Shown piece by piece: positions 1-28,756 of a stretch of 28,886 nt of DNA (position 1 is the stretch's first letter; each line of letters opens with the position of its first letter). The DNA is from a virus. The notes under the pieces are model-generated. The model worked only from the letters and a program-made list of their open reading frames with translations. It searched no databases and had not been told where the DNA came from. The DNA lies in IMG/VR virus record IMGVR_UViG_3300025156_000019, positions 1-28,886 of that record; one strand, given 5' to 3'. A program made the position numbers and the translations under genes.

Positions 1-99
1 ATGTCTCTCTCTGAGACATCTGTGGTCTCTCTGTGAGACATGTCTCTCTCTGAGACATCTGTGGTCTCTCTGTGAGACATGTCTCTCTCTGAGACATCT
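1..99. repeat. 39-bp tandem repeat made of five 15-bp dyad (iteron-like) sites
   Basis: The unit starting at 1, 40 and 79 is 39 bp long and identical between copies; the third copy diverges after 99. Each unit holds two near-identical dyads, GTCTC-TCTCT-GAGAC and GTCTC-TCTGT-GAGAC, so sites fall at 3-17, 25-39, 42-56, 64-78 and 81-95, with alternating 22/17-bp spacing. The sites at 3, 42 and 81 are extended to ATGTCTC/GAGACAT. 39 bp is 13 codons, so the repeat stays in frame in the overlapping gene. Dyad iterons inside an initiator gene are typical of lambda-type origins. The array may continue beyond the left edge. Confidence 0.85.
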
Positions 100-362
100 T
101 GTTCGGAGGAAATGCTTAGGTAATAGATGTTCCGATTGCGCGCGGTCTTCCCTCGCCGGATTAAGTTTGCTTTCTCAAGCTTAGCTAATGCACGCATGAT
201 GCTAGCTCGGCTAAGCCGTGTCCACTGCATCAACGTTTTGACGGATGGCCAACATTGGCCTTTACTGTCGGCGTGCAGAATCAACACAAGCGCCACAATT
301 CTCTCGTTCGTACCTAACTCATCCCGATCAATGAACTCCTTGATTTTCTCAGGGGACATCAT
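1..362 (-). CDS. Replication-initiator-like winged-HTH protein with 13-residue repeats (partial, runs off left edge)
   Basis: Reading the minus strand from ATG at 362 (a second ATG follows at 359) gives an open frame to the window edge. A ribosome binding site (AGGAAAGGGG) lies just upstream. The N-terminal ~95 residues (MMSPEKIKEFID..., then NERIVALVLILHAD and SRASIMRALAKLEKANLIRRG) look like the winged-HTH domain found at the start of many phage replication proteins (HTH_36 / lambda O type). After NIYYLSISSEQ the frame enters a 13-residue tandem repeat, DVSERDMSHRETT, present about 2.5 times and continuing off the edge. The same DNA forms five dyad sites. Inference: an initiator protein with the replication origin inside its gene, as in lambda O. 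Alternatives are a transcription regulator with a low-complexity tail. The fold is fairly secure; the role is inferred. It is the last gene of the leftward unit in this window. Confidence 0.75.
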   Translation of the reverse strand, partial: MMSPEKIKEFIDRDELGTNERIVALVLILHADSKGQCWPSVKTLMQWTRLSRASIMRALAKLEKANLIRRGKTARNRNIYYLSISSEQDVSERDMSHRETTDVSERDMSHRETTDVSERD

Positions 363-393: not shown

Positions 394-627
394 CTAGCAA
401 GCAAATGAAAGGCAAGATCCATCATCTGCCTGCTTGGCAATCGCTATATTTAACAGATAGATATTGGTTGGGCCACCTTGCCGCCTGATTATTCTTTTCC
501 GTTCGAGGTTGTGGATTATCCGTATCACACTGCGCCTTGCGAGTCCTGATAACTTCGCGAGAGAAGAATAACTGATCTTGCACACGCCATTGATATCGCT
601 ATGCAGCATCAGCACGATTAGTACCAA
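394..627 (-). CDS. Winged-HTH protein, paralogue of the neighbouring initiator-like gene; start uncertain
   Basis: The product contains a winged helix-turn-helix: STEKLVLIVLMLHSD..., SYSSLAKLSGLARRSVIRI and IHNLERKRIIRRQG, ending with a beta-wing-like NIYLLNIA. It aligns over its length with the first ~90 residues of the gene just downstream (NERIVALVLILHAD / SRASIMRALAKLEKANLIRRG / NIYYLSIS), so the two are tandem paralogues; this one lacks the repeat tail. The TTG at 627 has no ribosome binding site and would cut off the domain start. The frame stays open upstream (PEINLDLSSTEK...) to about 728 without a standard start codon. An ATG at 667 lies where a start is expected but is one base out of frame, so a non-standard start, a frameshift or decay are all possible. 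Possible role: regulator or accessory origin-binding protein. Confidence 0.65.
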   Translation of the reverse strand: MVLIVLMLHSDINGVCKISYSSLAKLSGLARRSVIRIIHNLERKRIIRRQGGPTNIYLLNIAIAKQADDGSCLSFAC

Positions 628-3231: not shown

Positions 3232-3786
3232 TTAGTGAGTTGGTTTGACCATTCCAAGGAACCTATAGATCCGATACGCGAGATCTTTGTGTTTCTGGTT
3301 TTCGGAATGACTCAAAACTGCAGCCGCCTCACTCATCAGATTGAACCATTCGGGGGGCCCAGTCTCAATCTGCAGATCCAGGCCCGGGTTGCCTATGGTC
3401 CAGATTTTTGCTGCGAGACAGCACCAGACCCGCGCATCATCCCGCCAAATTCCCATGTGTGTCAGCGTGTCGAGGGCCTTATTGAGATTGTCGAGGTCCG
3501 GTTTCTGCGCATGCCGGACATCCTCAAACTTTGGCCGCAGCCCTTTGGCCCCGTAGTGGCTTTTGGGCCGCATAATCCGGTAGACGGCCGTAACCGCAAC
3601 CGGCTCGTCCAGCGGTTCCTCTGGCACATATTCCGCGAGCTGAGAATAGATAGCCCGCTCCCAGTGCTCGGCGGATTTGCCTGGATACCTGACTAGCGCC
3701 GGTCTCCCGTCCTTCCGTAGAACCGCACGGAAGCGCGGGGCCGGCTTACCTTGAGGGGTCCCAGCAATGTCAACTTTGATCCTCAT
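3232..3786 (-). CDS. rusA: RusA-family Holliday junction resolvase
   Basis: RusA-type endonucleases cut Holliday junctions formed during phage recombination and replication. The 184-residue product has the family layout. It has an N-terminal G-x-P-x-x-K-P-x-x-R motif (GTPQGKPAPRFR, residues 9-20). Next comes the signature KPDLDNLNKALD (95-106), with D97 and D99 as likely metal ligands, then IWRDDARV (113-120), supplying the third acidic residue. RusA of E. coli is about 120 residues; here a ~60-residue C-terminal extension is present. TGGAGGACTGAGCC precedes the ATG at 3786. It lies in the same operon as the RecB-like nuclease, consistent with a recombination module. Family assignment is secure. 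Confidence 0.92.
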   Translation of the reverse strand: MRIKVDIAGTPQGKPAPRFRAVLRKDGRPALVRYPGKSAEHWERAIYSQLAEYVPEEPLDEPVAVTAVYRIMRPKSHYGAKGLRPKFEDVRHAQKPDLDNLNKALDTLTHMGIWRDDARVWCCLAAKIWTIGNPGLDLQIETGPPEWFNLMSEAAAVLSHSENQKHKDLAYRIYRFLGMVKPTH

Positions 3787-3811: not shown

Positions 3812-4201
3812 CTATGGCCAGACTTTTTGGGTCAGTTTGATTGCCTGACACAACAATGTACCGCGTGGAAGCTCAAATGGGGTGAGCGCTGTTTGCCTGC
3901 GATCCCATAGAGCTATGGGGACGGGACCACCGGAATCTAAACCAACTCTCGGAAGGCGCTCCTTCCACGGCATAACATCGGCCTCCCATATTTCACACAT
4001 TTCTATATCAGCTCGCAATTTTACCGCATATATTTTAGCATGTTTAAATGTTCGAAATGCGGCGAGTGGCCCACAGCCAGGTTTAGGTTTTACCCATTGC
4101 CCCGGCTTATAGGTGATATAGGAGCGCAGTATTAAATAAGCGTAGCTGCTCACGAGTCCGCATTCACGACCTGTATTAAGCACTACCTTATACGCTTTCA
4201 T
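3812..4201 (-). CDS. YKVV-family hypothetical protein (copy 1)
   Basis: A 129-residue protein starting MKAYKVV. It shares a patterned alignment with the products of 6295-6708 and 5341-5991. The common elements are an N-terminal Y-K-V/I-V, then Y-x-P-G-x-W-x-x-P, and G-P-L-x-A-F or a variant. The second half has E-x-W/F-E-A-x-x-x-PW, then P-I-A-x-W or similar, and LP-x-G-x-L-x-x-A-I-K-L near the end. The gene starts within the 4-nt ATGA overlap with the upstream nuclease gene (stop 4198-4200, ATG 4199-4201), so translation is coupled. No function is recognised; the three copies in one operon form a local paralogous family. Confidence 0.75.
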   Translation of the reverse strand: MKAYKVVLNTGRECGLVSSYAYLILRSYITYKPGQWVKPKPGCGPLAAFRTFKHAKIYAVKLRADIEMCEIWEADVMPWKERLPRVGLDSGGPVPIALWDRRQTALTPFELPRGTLLCQAIKLTQKVWP

Positions 4202-5307
4202 TTTTCCCTCCTCAAACTTGGACTCCGTTGTTTTTCCTCGACTGCACCCTCCAGTACCTGCTCCAGCAGATCCTTCAGTTCCGCTCGATCTTTCGCGATC
4301 GGCTTGAGTAGACGCTCGATGTCTTTAATACTCACACGAACCGTGTTGAGGAAATCAACCGGAGACACACCTGCCATTTTTAGCTTTCGCCAAACTGCGG
4401 CAACATCCTTGACTTCGCGAACTGTAGTGCCAGCAGAAAGGGTCCAGCCGGGGACTTCTTCACCGCGAGATAGGCGGAGTTTCGCTTCTTCCTCGAGTGC
4501 TTTGCCTACGATCTGGACCCAGTTCTTCCACTCGTTCAATAGGTCTGCGAGTTTCGCCGGAGGAAGTCCCTCAACATACTGTTTAAGCAGCTCTTTGGAC
4601 TTCTTTCCGCCAACGAACTCCGGGAGCTTCAACGTCTCAGGGCAAATTTGCAAGGCAGGGCAAAAACGGCAGTGGTCGCCACGACGCGTTCTGTCAGGCT
4701 TATGAATTGCCGCGTCGACCACATCTTTGAGTTGTCGACGCGCGATAGACAAGCCATGTTCGTCGTAAGTGTAATAATCCGGTCTGTATTGGCCTCGCCC
4801 AGTCTCAATAATCGCAACGTAAACCACCTCTGCCCCTAGTGCCTCTTGTGCTGCAAGCGCTCCGGCAGCAAGCTGCCAGTTTGTGCCGGGGTCCCACTCA
4901 TACCAGGCGGTGGTCTTCCAGTCATACAGGCAAGCCTGCTTCGTTTCCTGATCCCAAATCAGGATGTCGTAGCGGCCGACGATCTTTGCGCTATCCAAAT
5001 GGACCACCGCGCTCCATTCGCGTCGCACTTCTAGGTCAGAGTAATGTTTGCCGAGTAGCTGAGCGGTCAGCCAGTAGGCTGACTGCCAAGCATTCTCACG
5101 TTGTTCATTTTCCTCCGGAGAGAGATCCGGAGGCGGGTTGCCCGCAAGCGCAGCGTGAATCCGTTGGCCCCGGATTGAGGCCGGCGAATCCGGCCCAGGC
5201 AAGACCGTTCGGCTTAGCCTCCAGCTTGCCGGGCATTTCGCCACCCTGTCTAGTTCGCTCGCCCACAACTCGGGCTTTCCATTGTGTTTCGTCGTCTTGG
5301 TTTTCAT
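4198..5307 (-). CDS. PD-(D/E)XK nuclease, DUF2800/RecB-like with Cys cluster
   Basis: The 369-residue product fits the RecB/Cas4-like exonucleases often labelled DUF2800 in phages. Visible landmarks are a Cys near the N-terminus (C25, in AKCPASW) and RGQRIH (H51), followed by the core: D114 in GRYDILIWD, D129-x-K131 in YDWKT and Q145 in NWQLAAG. Three more Cys follow, C213, C216 and C222 (HCRFCPALQIC). C25 plus these three match the four-Cys iron-sulphur arrangement of AddB/Cas4-type nucleases. The C-terminal ~120 residues are helical. Expected role: 5'-3' degradation of DNA ends for single-strand annealing recombination, working with the putative annealing protein at 7144-8109 and the RusA-type resolvase. 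The catalytic core is clear; substrate direction is inferred. Confidence 0.85.
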   Translation of the reverse strand: MKTKTTKHNGKPELWASELDRVAKCPASWRLSRTVLPGPDSPASIRGQRIHAALAGNPPPDLSPEENEQRENAWQSAYWLTAQLLGKHYSDLEVRREWSAVVHLDSAKIVGRYDILIWDQETKQACLYDWKTTAWYEWDPGTNWQLAAGALAAQEALGAEVVYVAIIETGRGQYRPDYYTYDEHGLSIARRQLKDVVDAAIHKPDRTRRGDHCRFCPALQICPETLKLPEFVGGKKSKELLKQYVEGLPPAKLADLLNEWKNWVQIVGKALEEEAKLRLSRGEEVPGWTLSAGTTVREVKDVAAVWRKLKMAGVSPVDFLNTVRVSIKDIERLLKPIAKDRAELKDLLEQVLEGAVEEKQRSPSLRREK

Positions 5308-22196: not shown

Positions 22197-23552
22197 TCAA
22201 ACATCTCGAGCATCCAAGATTGCAGCAAAACTTTCGACATGCCGGATGCCAATGTCAACGTCCTGGAGCACCCGAACCCGAACCGTTCCGGCAGTGCCCC
22301 CAGTATACGGATCAACTAGCAGGTCCAGTGCGCCCCATTCGGCGATCACCAAATCGCGCCAGTTGCCGAAGATGATTGCAGAGCAGTCGTTGCTCGACCC
22401 CTTGGTCAGGTTGCTCGGGACCTGGTTGCTCATAGCGCAAGGCACACCAAGCATCGTGGTCATGCCGTCCGGGCCTGGTAAGTCCTCGATTACCGTCTTA
22501 CCGGTTCCCGAGAATTTTTCGGTGCTCGCAAGCTTCGCGATCATGATGGCATTGGTCAACCAACCAAGCCGACCGGTAGCGGCATTGTTTTGCGCGACCG
22601 TTTTCCAGAGGTTGAGGATGTGAGTATAAGTCGGGGCACCACCATCGGATCCGATCGCAACAACGCCGATCCCAGAAGTGTTGATTACTCCAGTCGGCTG
22701 GCCACCGGAGCCGGTTCCAGCAATCGTGGCATAGTCGATCGCCAGAGCTAAGACAGTCGCGAGATCTTCACGGACAAGTTGCTCCACATCCATGCTGGAC
22801 TGGAGCAAGAGTTTGCGAGAGATGTCGGTGAAGGCTCCGACAGTCTTCGGAGTCAGTGCAAGTTGCGCGAAGGTCTGCTGAGACTCGGACGGAGCGTTCC
22901 CTTCGGTCACCCAGTAGGCGGTAGCTCCACCGGTCTGTTTCGGAATTGCAACGTCGCCGACAAGCCCGCTCAGCACTCGCGCGCCGAGCTTGCGAACCAT
23001 CATCGCGTTCCGGAGCAACTCGATGAATTCCCCGGTCACCAGCTCGGTCGCGACCAGATTGCCTCCATCTCCGCTCTTGGTTAGATCGCGCCGAGTTCCG
23101 ACGTCAATGGTCAGGACGTCGTATGGAACGAAAATCCCTCGAGGTTCTCGCTTAATCTTCTCTGCGGTGGCCCGAGAAACCTCGCGTTCGAATTCCGCCT
23201 GAGACCAATCTCCGGTCGCCATAGCTCGGATAGCCCGAACAAAGGAGAATTGCCGGGCCTCCTTCTTGCTCAAACCGATAGTCGGGTCAATCGGTTCGAT
23301 CTTCCGCGCACCATAGACTTTCTCCAGTACGACAGCACGGAACTCATCGACAGACGTTCCGTCGGCGATGGCCTTTTGCGCCAGTTCCACGCATTTGTGT
23401 TGCTGACCAATCGCCATGATCTCACTGATCCGCTTACGCTCGGTCTCAAGGGCCTGCTTACGGATCTCCGACTCGTCCACCTGGACGCGGGGTTTTTCTT
23501 CGCGGATTTCAGGTTGAGGTTCCTGAACCGGATTTACTTGCTCGCTCATCAT
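22197..23552 (-). CDS. Internal in-frame start for free capsid protein (nested)
   Basis: Inside the fusion, the sequence GGAGGTAAAAGTA (SD with 8-nt spacing) precedes in-frame ATGs at 23552 and 23549 (residues M264/M265 of the fusion). Starting there gives a 451-residue scaffold-plus-capsid product without the protease. This resembles the lambda C/Nu3 nesting, where an internal start makes a second head protein. It would explain production of excess capsid over protease. The site is directly visible; use in vivo is inferred. Confidence 0.65.
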   Translation of the reverse strand: MMSEQVNPVQEPQPEIREEKPRVQVDESEIRKQALETERKRISEIMAIGQQHKCVELAQKAIADGTSVDEFRAVVLEKVYGARKIEPIDPTIGLSKKEARQFSFVRAIRAMATGDWSQAEFEREVSRATAEKIKREPRGIFVPYDVLTIDVGTRRDLTKSGDGGNLVATELVTGEFIELLRNAMMVRKLGARVLSGLVGDVAIPKQTGGATAYWVTEGNAPSESQQTFAQLALTPKTVGAFTDISRKLLLQSSMDVEQLVREDLATVLALAIDYATIAGTGSGGQPTGVINTSGIGVVAIGSDGGAPTYTHILNLWKTVAQNNAATGRLGWLTNAIMIAKLASTEKFSGTGKTVIEDLPGPDGMTTMLGVPCAMSNQVPSNLTKGSSNDCSAIIFGNWRDLVIAEWGALDLLVDPYTGGTAGTVRVRVLQDVDIGIRHVESFAAILDARDV

Positions 23553-24341
23553 TACTTTTACCTCCGTTTTGGTTTCTGCTCTTCCGACTCCGACGGTATG
23601 ATCCGCCGGAACCGCTACTATGGAAACCTCCAAGGGTTCCCAATTGGTTACTCTGTAAAATTGCTCCTCTCCTTCCTCCTTTTCAAGTACCATCTCATGA
23701 ATCATGTAGCCGACACTGACATTCCTCCAAACTCCTTCTTGGACATCTTTCCAGACCTCTTCAGCCAAGCTCGACTTTCCAAAGCGGACAACTGCGACAC
23801 CACGCTTTCGCTTTTTGTCGACCCAAACGTCTTCAATAACTCCGATGACCTTGTCCGGATCGTGATTCAGGAGAAGGTTCCCGGCCTCTTTTAATCGACT
23901 CAGAGAAACCGAACTCTCTTTGTGGTCAAGAACCTCATACCCGAACCACCGCTTAACCGGTTGCTCACTTGAGAAAGTCAACGTAATTCGACGGGCGTCG
24001 GAATCAACCGCAGAAGGATCTACTCGTTCCGACCTGTACAGCATTCCGACCTCGATAGACTTCTGTGCCGATTTCTCCTTCGGAGCAGCCGGCTCAAAAG
24101 AACCGCCATGCTTTCTGCAATGCTGCCGTGCCTCAGCAGCAGTCCATTTATCTCGCGGGTACCTCATGCTCTGCATATAGGCTTTCCGCTCGCCGTCTTC
24201 GACTTTGATCCCCCAGATTACGTCGATCGGTTTTCCATCGACCTTCAAGGCTCCGTTCTCTCTGCGGAACTCTTTGAATTCGCTAGGATCCCGCAGCCTA
24301 CAAGCATGCTCATTCGGATATGGTCTGGACTCGCTTCCCAT
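22197..24341 (-). CDS. Fused prohead protease and HK97-fold major capsid protein
   Basis: A 714-residue fusion. Residues 1-85 are the common ACRLRDP-type leader domain (CRLRDPSEF, RYPRDKWTAAEA, HCRKHGG). Residues ~90-255 are a U35/HK97-type prohead protease, with likely catalytic H160 (LLNHDPDKVIG) and S209 (RNVSVGY) and the WEPLEVSIVAVP end motif. Residues 264-714 are a scaffold-like delta region (charged helices, KQALETERKRISEI) and the capsid (ATELVTGEFIELLRN, VGDVAIPKQTGG, TVGAFTDISRKLL, ALAIDYATIAGTGSGGQPTG). GGAGGGAACGGAA precedes ATG 24341, which is 32 nt inside the portal gene. An internal start is annotated separately. Confidence 0.9.
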   Translation of the reverse strand: MGSESRPYPNEHACRLRDPSEFKEFRRENGALKVDGKPIDVIWGIKVEDGERKAYMQSMRYPRDKWTAAEARQHCRKHGGSFEPAAPKEKSAQKSIEVGMLYRSERVDPSAVDSDARRITLTFSSEQPVKRWFGYEVLDHKESSVSLSRLKEAGNLLLNHDPDKVIGVIEDVWVDKKRKRGVAVVRFGKSSLAEEVWKDVQEGVWRNVSVGYMIHEMVLEKEEGEEQFYRVTNWEPLEVSIVAVPADHTVGVGRAETKTEVKVMMSEQVNPVQEPQPEIREEKPRVQVDESEIRKQALETERKRISEIMAIGQQHKCVELAQKAIADGTSVDEFRAVVLEKVYGARKIEPIDPTIGLSKKEARQFSFVRAIRAMATGDWSQAEFEREVSRATAEKIKREPRGIFVPYDVLTIDVGTRRDLTKSGDGGNLVATELVTGEFIELLRNAMMVRKLGARVLSGLVGDVAIPKQTGGATAYWVTEGNAPSESQQTFAQLALTPKTVGAFTDISRKLLLQSSMDVEQLVREDLATVLALAIDYATIAGTGSGGQPTGVINTSGIGVVAIGSDGGAPTYTHILNLWKTVAQNNAATGRLGWLTNAIMIAKLASTEKFSGTGKTVIEDLPGPDGMTTMLGVPCAMSNQVPSNLTKGSSNDCSAIIFGNWRDLVIAEWGALDLLVDPYTGGTAGTVRVRVLQDVDIGIRHVESFAAILDARDV

Positions 24342-26427: not shown

Positions 26428-28269
26428 CTACCAGCGCTTTACCCATCCGCCCCGGATTGCCCTCTTAGCCTTCGGTCTCTTAATTTCGGCCTTCTGTTGT
26501 TCCGGCGCAAGCACCAATTTTTTGATCTGTTTAAAGTCTGGATTCAAGATTGCCAGAGCAGCCAAATTGTACACCCAAAGATCCAAGACCTCGTTCCGCT
26601 CCCGAATCTTTTGCCAAACCCGAGTTGCTACCCCGCGCGTCACTTTAACGACAGGCCGTTCGGCAGTCAACTGGTCGAAATAATCCTCGTCGCATTGTTG
26701 GTTGAAATGAATATATCCGGGGCCGGGCTTCTCGATCTGCAGCCGTGCGAAGATAATATCCTTCGCCGCGGAAACTGCTACTGGGTAGAGACGAACTCCT
26801 GACCTACCGGCCCGCATTGGCCGACCGACTAACGGAGCTCCAGGGGTTGAGATCCCCTTGATCGCGTAGATTCTCTGACGTTGCCGGTGTCGGACAAAGT
26901 CATAGACACGTTTCGACAGAAAGCCTGAATCAATGCAAGTCACCTCTACCTTCAGCCTTGCACCGCTAGGATGCGGCCATGTTGTCTCGCTTAGATAGCG
27001 GTCAAGTTGCTCCCAGACGTCTTCACCGACTGGAGGTCCAAATAAAAACTGCCTGTCGATATGCCAGGCTTCTTCACCTTCTCCCCAACCGGCCACCAGG
27101 ATCTCCAGGCGGTCCTCTTGCACATCTACCGCCGCGGTCAAAACACAAACCTGTTCTGGCAGCTCTGGCCCGTATTGCTCGATCCGCTTGCGAAGCGGAG
27201 GCAAGTCGTCCTCGAAATGGATTTCCGACCAAGTCTGTCCGAGCACGGTGTTGTAGAAAACCCGAAGCTCTTCTTGGCTCTGCTTTGCGTCAAGATAAGC
27301 CTTCGCGATTGAGGCCCAGGTTGCCCAAGGAGAGTAAAGCTCGCTTAAGTGGAACCCCGCGGTAAGAATGATTTCTGGGTTCGTCTTTCTCCACTCGCCC
27401 TTTCGAACCGCGGCGATTTTCTGTTTGTCTGTCCATGGTTGCCGGCAAAACGCACAAACATAGTGTGCCGTGTTCGGATTGCCTTCGCTCCAGCGGAGGT
27501 TTTCGAAGAGAAGCTCTTGATATTCGCCACAATGCGGACATGGGACGAAGAACCTTCGTTGGTCACTCTGTTGATAGGTCCGCTCAATCCGACTCACGCC
27601 CTGAATTGTAGGCGTGCTGATCAAGATAATCTTCCGGTTCCAGTAAGCCTGAGTTCGTTTTTTGGCCAAGGCGACCGGATCCCCTTCCGAGCCGACGCAA
27701 GCTGGGAATCGATCCACTTCATCCAGGACAAGCAACCGGATCGGCCGTGTAGCTAAAGAAGCAGGAGAATTCGCTCCGGCAATTGTGATGTGGCCTCCAT
27801 GAAACGTGAAGTGGAAAGTATGTTGGCCCCGCCTTCTCATTCCCTTTCCTCGAAGCCTTTGCCCTAGAGTCGGGCAATCACGGAACATCGGGTAAATCCG
27901 ATCTTGAGCATAGTGTTTCGCGATTTCAAGGGTAGGGACTACGATCAGGATCGGACAAGGATCCATCTGCACATGGTAGCCTAAGATGTTTAGCGCAATC
28001 TCAGTTTTCCCGACCTGCGCGCTACTCATGATTACGATTTGTTGAACCCCTGGTTCGTGAACCGCGTCCATGATTCCCCGCTGGTAAGGAGCTCTGTCGT
28101 TCGACCAGCGGCCAGGCTCGGCCGCGGTTTCCGGACTCAAAACCCGAAACCGTTCCGCCCACTCGCTCACCGTCAAAGGTGGAGGCGGTTTCAGAATGGA
28201 AAGCGTCTCTGCGATAAGATCATCAACGATTGCGCTTGGATTTCTTCGACTTTGTCTTCCGCTTTCCAT
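26428..28269 (-). CDS. Terminase large subunit, GpA family
   Basis: A 613-residue ATPase/nuclease that packages DNA. Landmarks are VSEWAERFRVLSPETAAEPG (34-53) and APYQRGIMDA (60-69). The Walker-A-like SSAQVGKT lies at 82-89 with the catalytic Lys at 88, and Walker B LLVLDE at 179-184. A Cys4 knuckle (CPHC ... CAFC) precedes the nuclease domain, which has acidic residues (AAVDVQEDRLEILVAGWG; TCIDSGFLSKR). The C-terminus is basic (KRPKAKRAIRGGWVKRW). Family length for lambda gpA is ~640. Its 5' end overlaps the small terminase by 47 nt. Assignment is secure. Confidence 0.95.
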   Translation of the reverse strand: MESGRQSRRNPSAIVDDLIAETLSILKPPPPLTVSEWAERFRVLSPETAAEPGRWSNDRAPYQRGIMDAVHEPGVQQIVIMSSAQVGKTEIALNILGYHVQMDPCPILIVVPTLEIAKHYAQDRIYPMFRDCPTLGQRLRGKGMRRRGQHTFHFTFHGGHITIAGANSPASLATRPIRLLVLDEVDRFPACVGSEGDPVALAKKRTQAYWNRKIILISTPTIQGVSRIERTYQQSDQRRFFVPCPHCGEYQELLFENLRWSEGNPNTAHYVCAFCRQPWTDKQKIAAVRKGEWRKTNPEIILTAGFHLSELYSPWATWASIAKAYLDAKQSQEELRVFYNTVLGQTWSEIHFEDDLPPLRKRIEQYGPELPEQVCVLTAAVDVQEDRLEILVAGWGEGEEAWHIDRQFLFGPPVGEDVWEQLDRYLSETTWPHPSGARLKVEVTCIDSGFLSKRVYDFVRHRQRQRIYAIKGISTPGAPLVGRPMRAGRSGVRLYPVAVSAAKDIIFARLQIEKPGPGYIHFNQQCDEDYFDQLTAERPVVKVTRGVATRVWQKIRERNEVLDLWVYNLAALAILNPDFKQIKKLVLAPEQQKAEIKRPKAKRAIRGGWVKRW

Positions 28270-28756
28270 CTTTTGCCACTAGGTCCGGATTCGACAGATC
28301 CTCCATGACTTCCGCAATGATTCGCTCTGTAATCTGTTTAACTTCTTCCGGAGTTTCGCATCCTAAGACAACTGGTGCAAGGCGCCCCGGAATCTGAAGC
28401 AGTTTGTTCCGGATGGACTGGAGCACTTGCGCCCACTTTTCACGTGCAACGTCAGCGTCAACCAGCTTTCCTAGTTTCTCCTGGATTTCGATTTGCCGTT
28501 TGTCCGCAAGCAGCTTCGTCAGCCGCGCTCGCTCCTCCATCAAGCTCAAAGATCCGGGAGAAGCCGCAAGGTCATGATAGTAGCGGATCACGGCTTGGAC
28601 TGCCGGGAGAAAATCAATCATTCCCCGAACGACCGGAGGAAACCCCCGCTCTTTCACAAGCTGACGGTACCGCCGCGGCGACATAAGGAAGAGGCGATCA
28701 GCAACCTCTTCAAGCCGTACAGGATTCTTAAACTCCGGTTTGTTCGGTATAGGCAT
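28223..28756 (-). CDS. Terminase small subunit, Nu1-like
   Basis: A 177-residue protein with an N-terminal winged-HTH of the Nu1 type (VRLEEVADRLFLMSPRRY, RQLVKERGFPPVVRG) for cos/pac recognition. A helical middle (ARLTKLLADKRQIEIQEKLG) follows. The segment VREKWAQVLQSIRNKLLQIP is approximate near residue 110. A basic tail (KRKTKSKKSKRNR) ends the protein. GGAAGGGATC precedes ATG 28756. It is directly followed by the large subunit, the classic lambda arrangement. The cos/pac site is probably near here but is not identified. Confidence 0.85.
   Translation of the reverse strand: MPIPNKPEFKNPVRLEEVADRLFLMSPRRYRQLVKERGFPPVVRGMIDFLPAVQAVIRYYHDLAASPGSLSLMEERARLTKLLADKRQIEIQEKLGKLVDADVAREKWAQVLQSIRNKLLQIPGRLAPVVLGCETPEEVKQITERIIAEVMEDLSNPDLVAKDGKRKTKSKKSKRNR

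Follow-up and report, generated by a model that had tools for sequence, protein, structure and literature searches.

The left end of a 28,886-bp viral contig (IMG/VR record IMGVR_UViG_3300025156_000019, complete and referred to here as the window) carries five tandem dyads of the form GTCTC-N5-GAGAC, and these very probably serve as iterons of a lambda-type replication origin embedded in the gene for its own initiator. This reading, put forward in an earlier note on the same DNA, is supported by the position of the dyads, the AT-rich flank found in relatives, a dyad geometry shared with lambda, and a covariation between the repeated site and the recognition helix of the encoded protein, with origin function still inferred from these features.

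The dyads are exact, occur on the plus strand, and number five against 0.04 expected by chance from dinucleotide shuffles, with no sixth exact copy elsewhere in the 28,886-bp window; the positions reported previously are therefore confirmed. Counted from the DNA-binding domain outward, they comprise iteron 1 (81-95, GTCTCTCTCTGAGAC), which is nearest to the wing and lies 21 bp past it, iteron 2 (64-78, GTCTCTCTGTGAGAC), iteron 3 (42-56, GTCTCTCTCTGAGAC), iteron 4 (25-39, GTCTCTCTGTGAGAC), and iteron 5 (3-17, GTCTCTCTCTGAGAC), where the contig end cuts the array. The contig thus starts within the array, five being the number visible in the window, and none of the viral contigs containing GTCTCTCTCTGAGAC extends this array leftward. 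Together the dyads form a perfect 39-bp direct repeat (positions 1-39 are identical to 40-78, and a third copy reaches 99) that translates in frame on the minus strand as DVSERDMSHRETT, within an open reading frame running from 362 to 3. The two dyads within each unit fall in different frames and are spaced by 22 and 17 bp, and since these spacings sum to 39, the 13-residue repeat can be regarded as a by-product. The in-frame repeat pointed out in the earlier note is thus perfect here, but does not hold as a general constraint, as relatives use all frames.

The gene that contains the array (3-362, minus strand), assigned from its open reading frame and from Pfam and PHROG matches, encodes the N-terminal 120 residues of an HTH_36 winged-helix replication initiator, and is open at the contig edge, so that the C-terminus lies off the contig. 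Its N-terminus matches Pfam HTH_36 (PF13730) with an E-value of 9.7e-15 and 54.6 bits, against a curated cut-off of 25, as well as PHROG families annotated as 'replication initiation / O-like' (1e-14 to 1e-10; phrog_270, 1.1e-14), which places it among the HTH_36-type phage replication initiators and bears out its initial description as a phage-initiator-like winged HTH. The winged-helix DNA-binding domain spans residues 20-82 (117-305, minus strand), as delimited by HMM boundaries, an AlphaFold2 model, and fold matches, the latter being to winged-helix proteins. The model (pLDDT 91.5) places helices at residues 18-29, 41-48, and 52-64, and wing strands at 68-72 and 78-82. The third helix, α3 (residues 52-64, RASIMRALAKLEK; 171-209, minus strand), is the recognition helix according to the model and to a motif conserved beside GTCTC arrays, and it includes Ala53 (codon at 204-206, minus strand), the residue singled out by mutual information as tracking the iteron type. 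A search of IMG/VR with the single protein found no relatives of the initiator, and tblastn against phage and plasmid records returned distant HTH_36 proteins only, with GTCTC arrays absent from those retrieved.

The association between such dyads and initiator genes recurs widely among viruses. A scan of IMG/VR viral contigs for any two GTCTC-N5-GAGAC dyads within 30 bp, in which protein information was not used, returned at least 117 loci, and in 83 of the 117 listed the array shares an open reading frame with a winged-HTH domain, mostly at a position 0-115 bp past the wing. Inspection of the remaining 34 listed loci showed that approximately 14 resemble initiators with a diverged HTH or located at a contig edge, and these are probably further initiators. 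A control motif of equal composition, CTCTG-N5-CAGAG, gave eight viral loci, none of them in a winged-HTH gene. Phrog_270 is matched by 23 of 27 array-bearing initiators, and DnaC-like loaders are found downstream of a few. In cellular genomes, paired GTCTC-N5-GAGAC dyads occur in a winged-HTH gene at just 9 of 117 loci, indicating that the link between dyad and initiator is mainly a phage feature and that the motif alone is not origin-specific. Repeated pairs outside winged-HTH genes were observed on several contigs of a Candidatus Wallbacteria MAG (L183, L196, L203, and L228) and of the Bacillota MAG CF.Solf.bin.4 (L184, L197, L221, L226, and L238), with a fixed spacing of 20 or 31 bp within one genome.

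The arrangement in the window resembles that of phage lambda, where, as in the Stx phages, iterons and an AT tract in the O gene form a documented origin (PMC7466680). Annotated lambda iterons begin directly past the DNA-binding domain of O and follow one another in tandem at 20-24 bp, as the tandem dyads of the window lie inside the initiator gene past its DNA-binding domain, and lambda iteron 1 (CCCTC-AAAAC-GAGGG) has the same 5-N5-5 geometry as the window dyads with an identical inner CTC/GAG. Two additional iterons in the Stx phages lengthen the protein by 13 residues (PMC7466680), and the corresponding 39 bp equal the repeat unit of the window. The likeness extends to architecture and not to family: lambda O matches PF04492 (Phage_rep_O) at 5.7e-36, whereas the window protein, with its half-site GTCTC, matches HTH_36 and gives no PF04492 match. 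The lambda-O-type label thus stands for an array of 5-N5-5 dyads inside an initiator gene past the wing, and the comparison of the N-terminus with lambda O and HTH_36, which the note had called for, comes out in favor of the latter by Pfam. Also comparable are the HTH_36 / DnaD-like phage initiators (phrog_270, 391, 678, and 1032), several families of which are matched by the window gene, and sb42 of Salmonella phage ST64B (L297) carries GTGCA dyads past its wing. Iteron-containing plasmid replicons of the RepA type likewise combine a winged-helix initiator with tandem sites, and the plasmid Rep-DNA complex 5kbj is among the weak winged-helix fold matches of the window domain, but no sequence kinship between RepA-type initiators and the window protein was detected. 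In some RepA_N systems, too, the origin is situated within the rep gene.

In lambda, a tract of 72% AT adjoins the array on its 3' side; the corresponding side of the window's array is off the contig, and relatives indicate what may be expected there. Across 63 clusters with GTCTC or GTGAC arrays among the matches listed, the first 50 bp past the array are richer in AT than the gene by 9 percentage points on average (SE 1), and 42 of the 63 have the most AT-rich 40-mer of the gene 0-150 bp past the array. In a mechanism consistent with these features, each dyad would be read by two winged-helix domains of the initiator acting as a dimer, its GTCTC half-sites being 10 bp apart center to center, or about one helical turn. 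Several such dimers, at a spacing of 17-24 bp, could form an O-some-like complex with the DNA wrapped around it, strain or melt the AT-rich stretch predicted beyond the array, and recruit a helicase loader and helicase.

The sequence of the repeated site appears to follow the recognition helix of the protein that is encoded beside it. Next to GTCTC arrays this helix reads S-[RKN]-A-[ST]-[VI]-x-R, in domains that are otherwise divergent. The related phage L028, an Arsenophonus plasmid, and L446 carry Arg at helix position 3, all with GTG-type dyads, an observation that led to a scan for GTGAC-N5-GTCAC pairs. At least 120 viral loci were found, 41 of the 120 listed being in winged-HTH genes by HMM (31 clusters). 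Among the matches listed, helix position 3 (Ala53 in the window) is Ala in 30 of 33 GTCTC clusters versus Arg in 30 of 31 GTGAC clusters, and its mutual information with the site is 0.97 bit, out of a maximum of about 1, compared to 0.78 for the next column. Visual inspection of loci that the HMM had not picked up revealed Arg in the GTGAC loci L495, L500, L504, L521, and L543, Ala in the GTCTC loci L089, L103, L107, and L151, and Pro, Asp, and Thr in the GTCTC loci L080, L084/L122, and L134, none of which has Arg. In the reverse direction, a search for an SRA[STA] helix found GTCTC dyads at 15 of 15 viral loci among the matches listed, which include several near-copies and were found with a seed derived from GTCTC loci. 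GTGAC-N5-GTCAC pairs were also observed at L491, L493, L502, L519, and L531 in a conserved gene distinct from the winged-HTH initiators, encoding a peptide like SDATSRDYVIESDVTSQ.

An unbiased sample was obtained by drawing HTH_36 loci by HMM from Pseudomonadota and Bacillota genomes, regardless of the presence of dyads. GTCTC pairs were present at three of eight loci with Ala3 and Arg7 versus none of 71 others, and GTGAC pairs at two of 18 loci with Arg3 and Arg7 and at no others, with no crossed case. Residue 3 thus looks necessary but not sufficient, an example being L322, where an SRATVKR helix accompanies GGTTC. The combination of Arg3 and Arg7 accordingly fails as a sole predictor of GTGAC (2/18 in this cellular sample). 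Additional pairings, namely SKRSVMNH with GTGCA, TRRSVMQH with GTGAA, and SER[AT]V with CGGCA or GGTGC, hint from few pairs at a wider helix-site code beyond Ala and Arg. On these sequence comparisons, the balance tilts modestly toward a model in which HTH_36 phage initiators share a common iteron scaffold (5-N5-5 dyads past the wing) and a small number of residues in the recognition helix determine the half-site, with Ala or Arg at residue 3 corresponding to GTCTC or GTGAC, and Arg at residue 7 to an inner C, or in few cases Asn or Gln to an inner A (GTGCA, GTGAA). As sites and reader reside in one gene, they would travel together. Repeated switching between helix-site types is not proven by a tree of the 60-residue domain, which lacks the necessary resolution: the best tree requires 15 label changes compared to 21 in shuffles, and its strongly supported branches force one change only. 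A broad HTH_36 alignment was also tried for the locus search and proved too diverse. The relation between helix residue and iteron seems to be the new part of these results, as nothing similar was found in the open-access texts searched, which yielded no account of HTH_36 / DnaD-like initiator iterons or of a helix-iteron link, and no binding or replication experiment on these HTH_36 initiators.

Because the 39-bp unit is in frame and relatives show similar peptides (SHxET, VSxRD), the repeated DVSERDMSHRETT linker might itself be selected as protein, leaving the dyads as a by-product of codon usage, an explanation that carries scarcely any weight once the reading frames of relatives are considered. 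When GTCTC array loci among the matches listed were clustered at 70% identity, the dyads of the resulting 38 clusters used all three frames (62/37/23), giving unlike peptides such as SHRET, VSERD, and LRERP; spacings, which peak at 17 and 21-24 bp, were spread over the three remainders modulo 3 (29/32/23) with no bias to zero, and 20 of the 38 loci used more than one frame. A single array, that of L012, encodes SHCET, VSERD, and LRERP successively with a period of 22 bp. Selection thus appears to act on the DNA sites and not on the peptide, and an altered helix is accompanied by an altered DNA site, hence by an altered peptide. It is also very unlikely, if slightly less so, that the array is an assembly artefact or the result of CT-microsatellite slippage at the contig end. 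The contig does begin in a CT-rich perfect tandem repeat, and the viral contigs L127 (1-40), L513 (9023-9161), and L567 (4-63) likewise end in or beside dyad arrays, which suggests that short-read assemblies break at them. However, the copy adjoining unique sequence is independent of the contig end, and other phages share the identical dyad arms with widely varying N5 spacers, limiting the doubt to copy number.

The most substantial of the competing explanations, though still improbable, is that the array is an autoregulatory operator through which the winged-helix protein blocks or tunes transcription of its own gene, with the origin located elsewhere. Winged-HTH proteins are usually regulators, and most cellular GTCTC-N5-GAGAC pairs lie outside initiators. 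Some viral pairs are near Cro/YdaS-like genes, as at L163 (9200-9250) and L166 (6363-6413), where they adjoin such a gene and are probably repressor operators that share the GTCTC half-site. In the window itself, a one-mismatch dyad (GTCACCCCGTGAGAC, 763-777) just upstream of the pair of HTH genes could be an operator, though its occurrence is within chance. An operator would not account well for arrays of two to nine copies at roughly helical spacing, placed inside the open reading frame just past the DNA-binding domain and followed by an AT-rich 3' flank, and the equal layout in lambda belongs to a documented origin (PMC7466680). An in-gene origin thus remains the preferred reading, and origin and operator functions may coexist.

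If this interpretation is correct, many uncultivated phages appear to have a lambda-like origin within the initiator gene that is recognizable from DNA alone, and the predicted origin specificity would follow one initiator residue, providing a testable rule that would allow a phage's origin type to be deduced from its initiator sequence. Such a rule could be used to locate phage origins in metagenomes, to predict which phages or satellites are able to share or compete for initiators, and to study the coevolution of a protein and its binding sites encoded by one stretch of DNA.

All nameable genes of the window are located on the minus strand. The terminase small (28223-28756) and large (26428-28269) subunit genes occupy the right end, followed leftward by portal, head protein, and tail genes and then by an exonuclease (4198-5307), RusA (3232-3786), and two HTH_36 genes. 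Cumulative GC skew drifts with no extremum at the array, and as the nameable genes share one direction it is uninformative on the origin. The second HTH_36 gene (394-627, minus strand, in a frame open to approximately 730-735; Pfam HTH_36 2.5e-9 and frame translation) lies directly upstream of the initiator gene without a clear start codon and is possibly regulatory in role. It encodes an Arg-type helix, ARRSVIR, but the GTGAC site predicted for this gene was not found within the window.

What the window contig misses can probably be seen in L028, the related phage noted above, whose terminase is 82% identical and whose genes are ordered exonuclease, RusA, methyltransferase, small HTH, a 459-residue HTH_36 initiator, small genes, terS, and terL, an order that would leave approximately 3 kb of the window's phage between its two contig ends. 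The L028 initiator is syntenic and full-length, matches no Pfam domain in its C-terminal part, and has its own tandem dyad past the wing, which differs from that of the window in being of the GTGMC type and present in two copies only; the 50 bp past this array are 64% AT. The small HTH gene of L028 (5817-6218) occupies the place of the window's second HTH_36 gene, but the two are unlike. Among the structural genes of the window, a 714-aa head protein (22197-24341, minus strand) matches PHROG families for both the major head protein and the head maturation protease, and is apparently a protease-capsid fusion.
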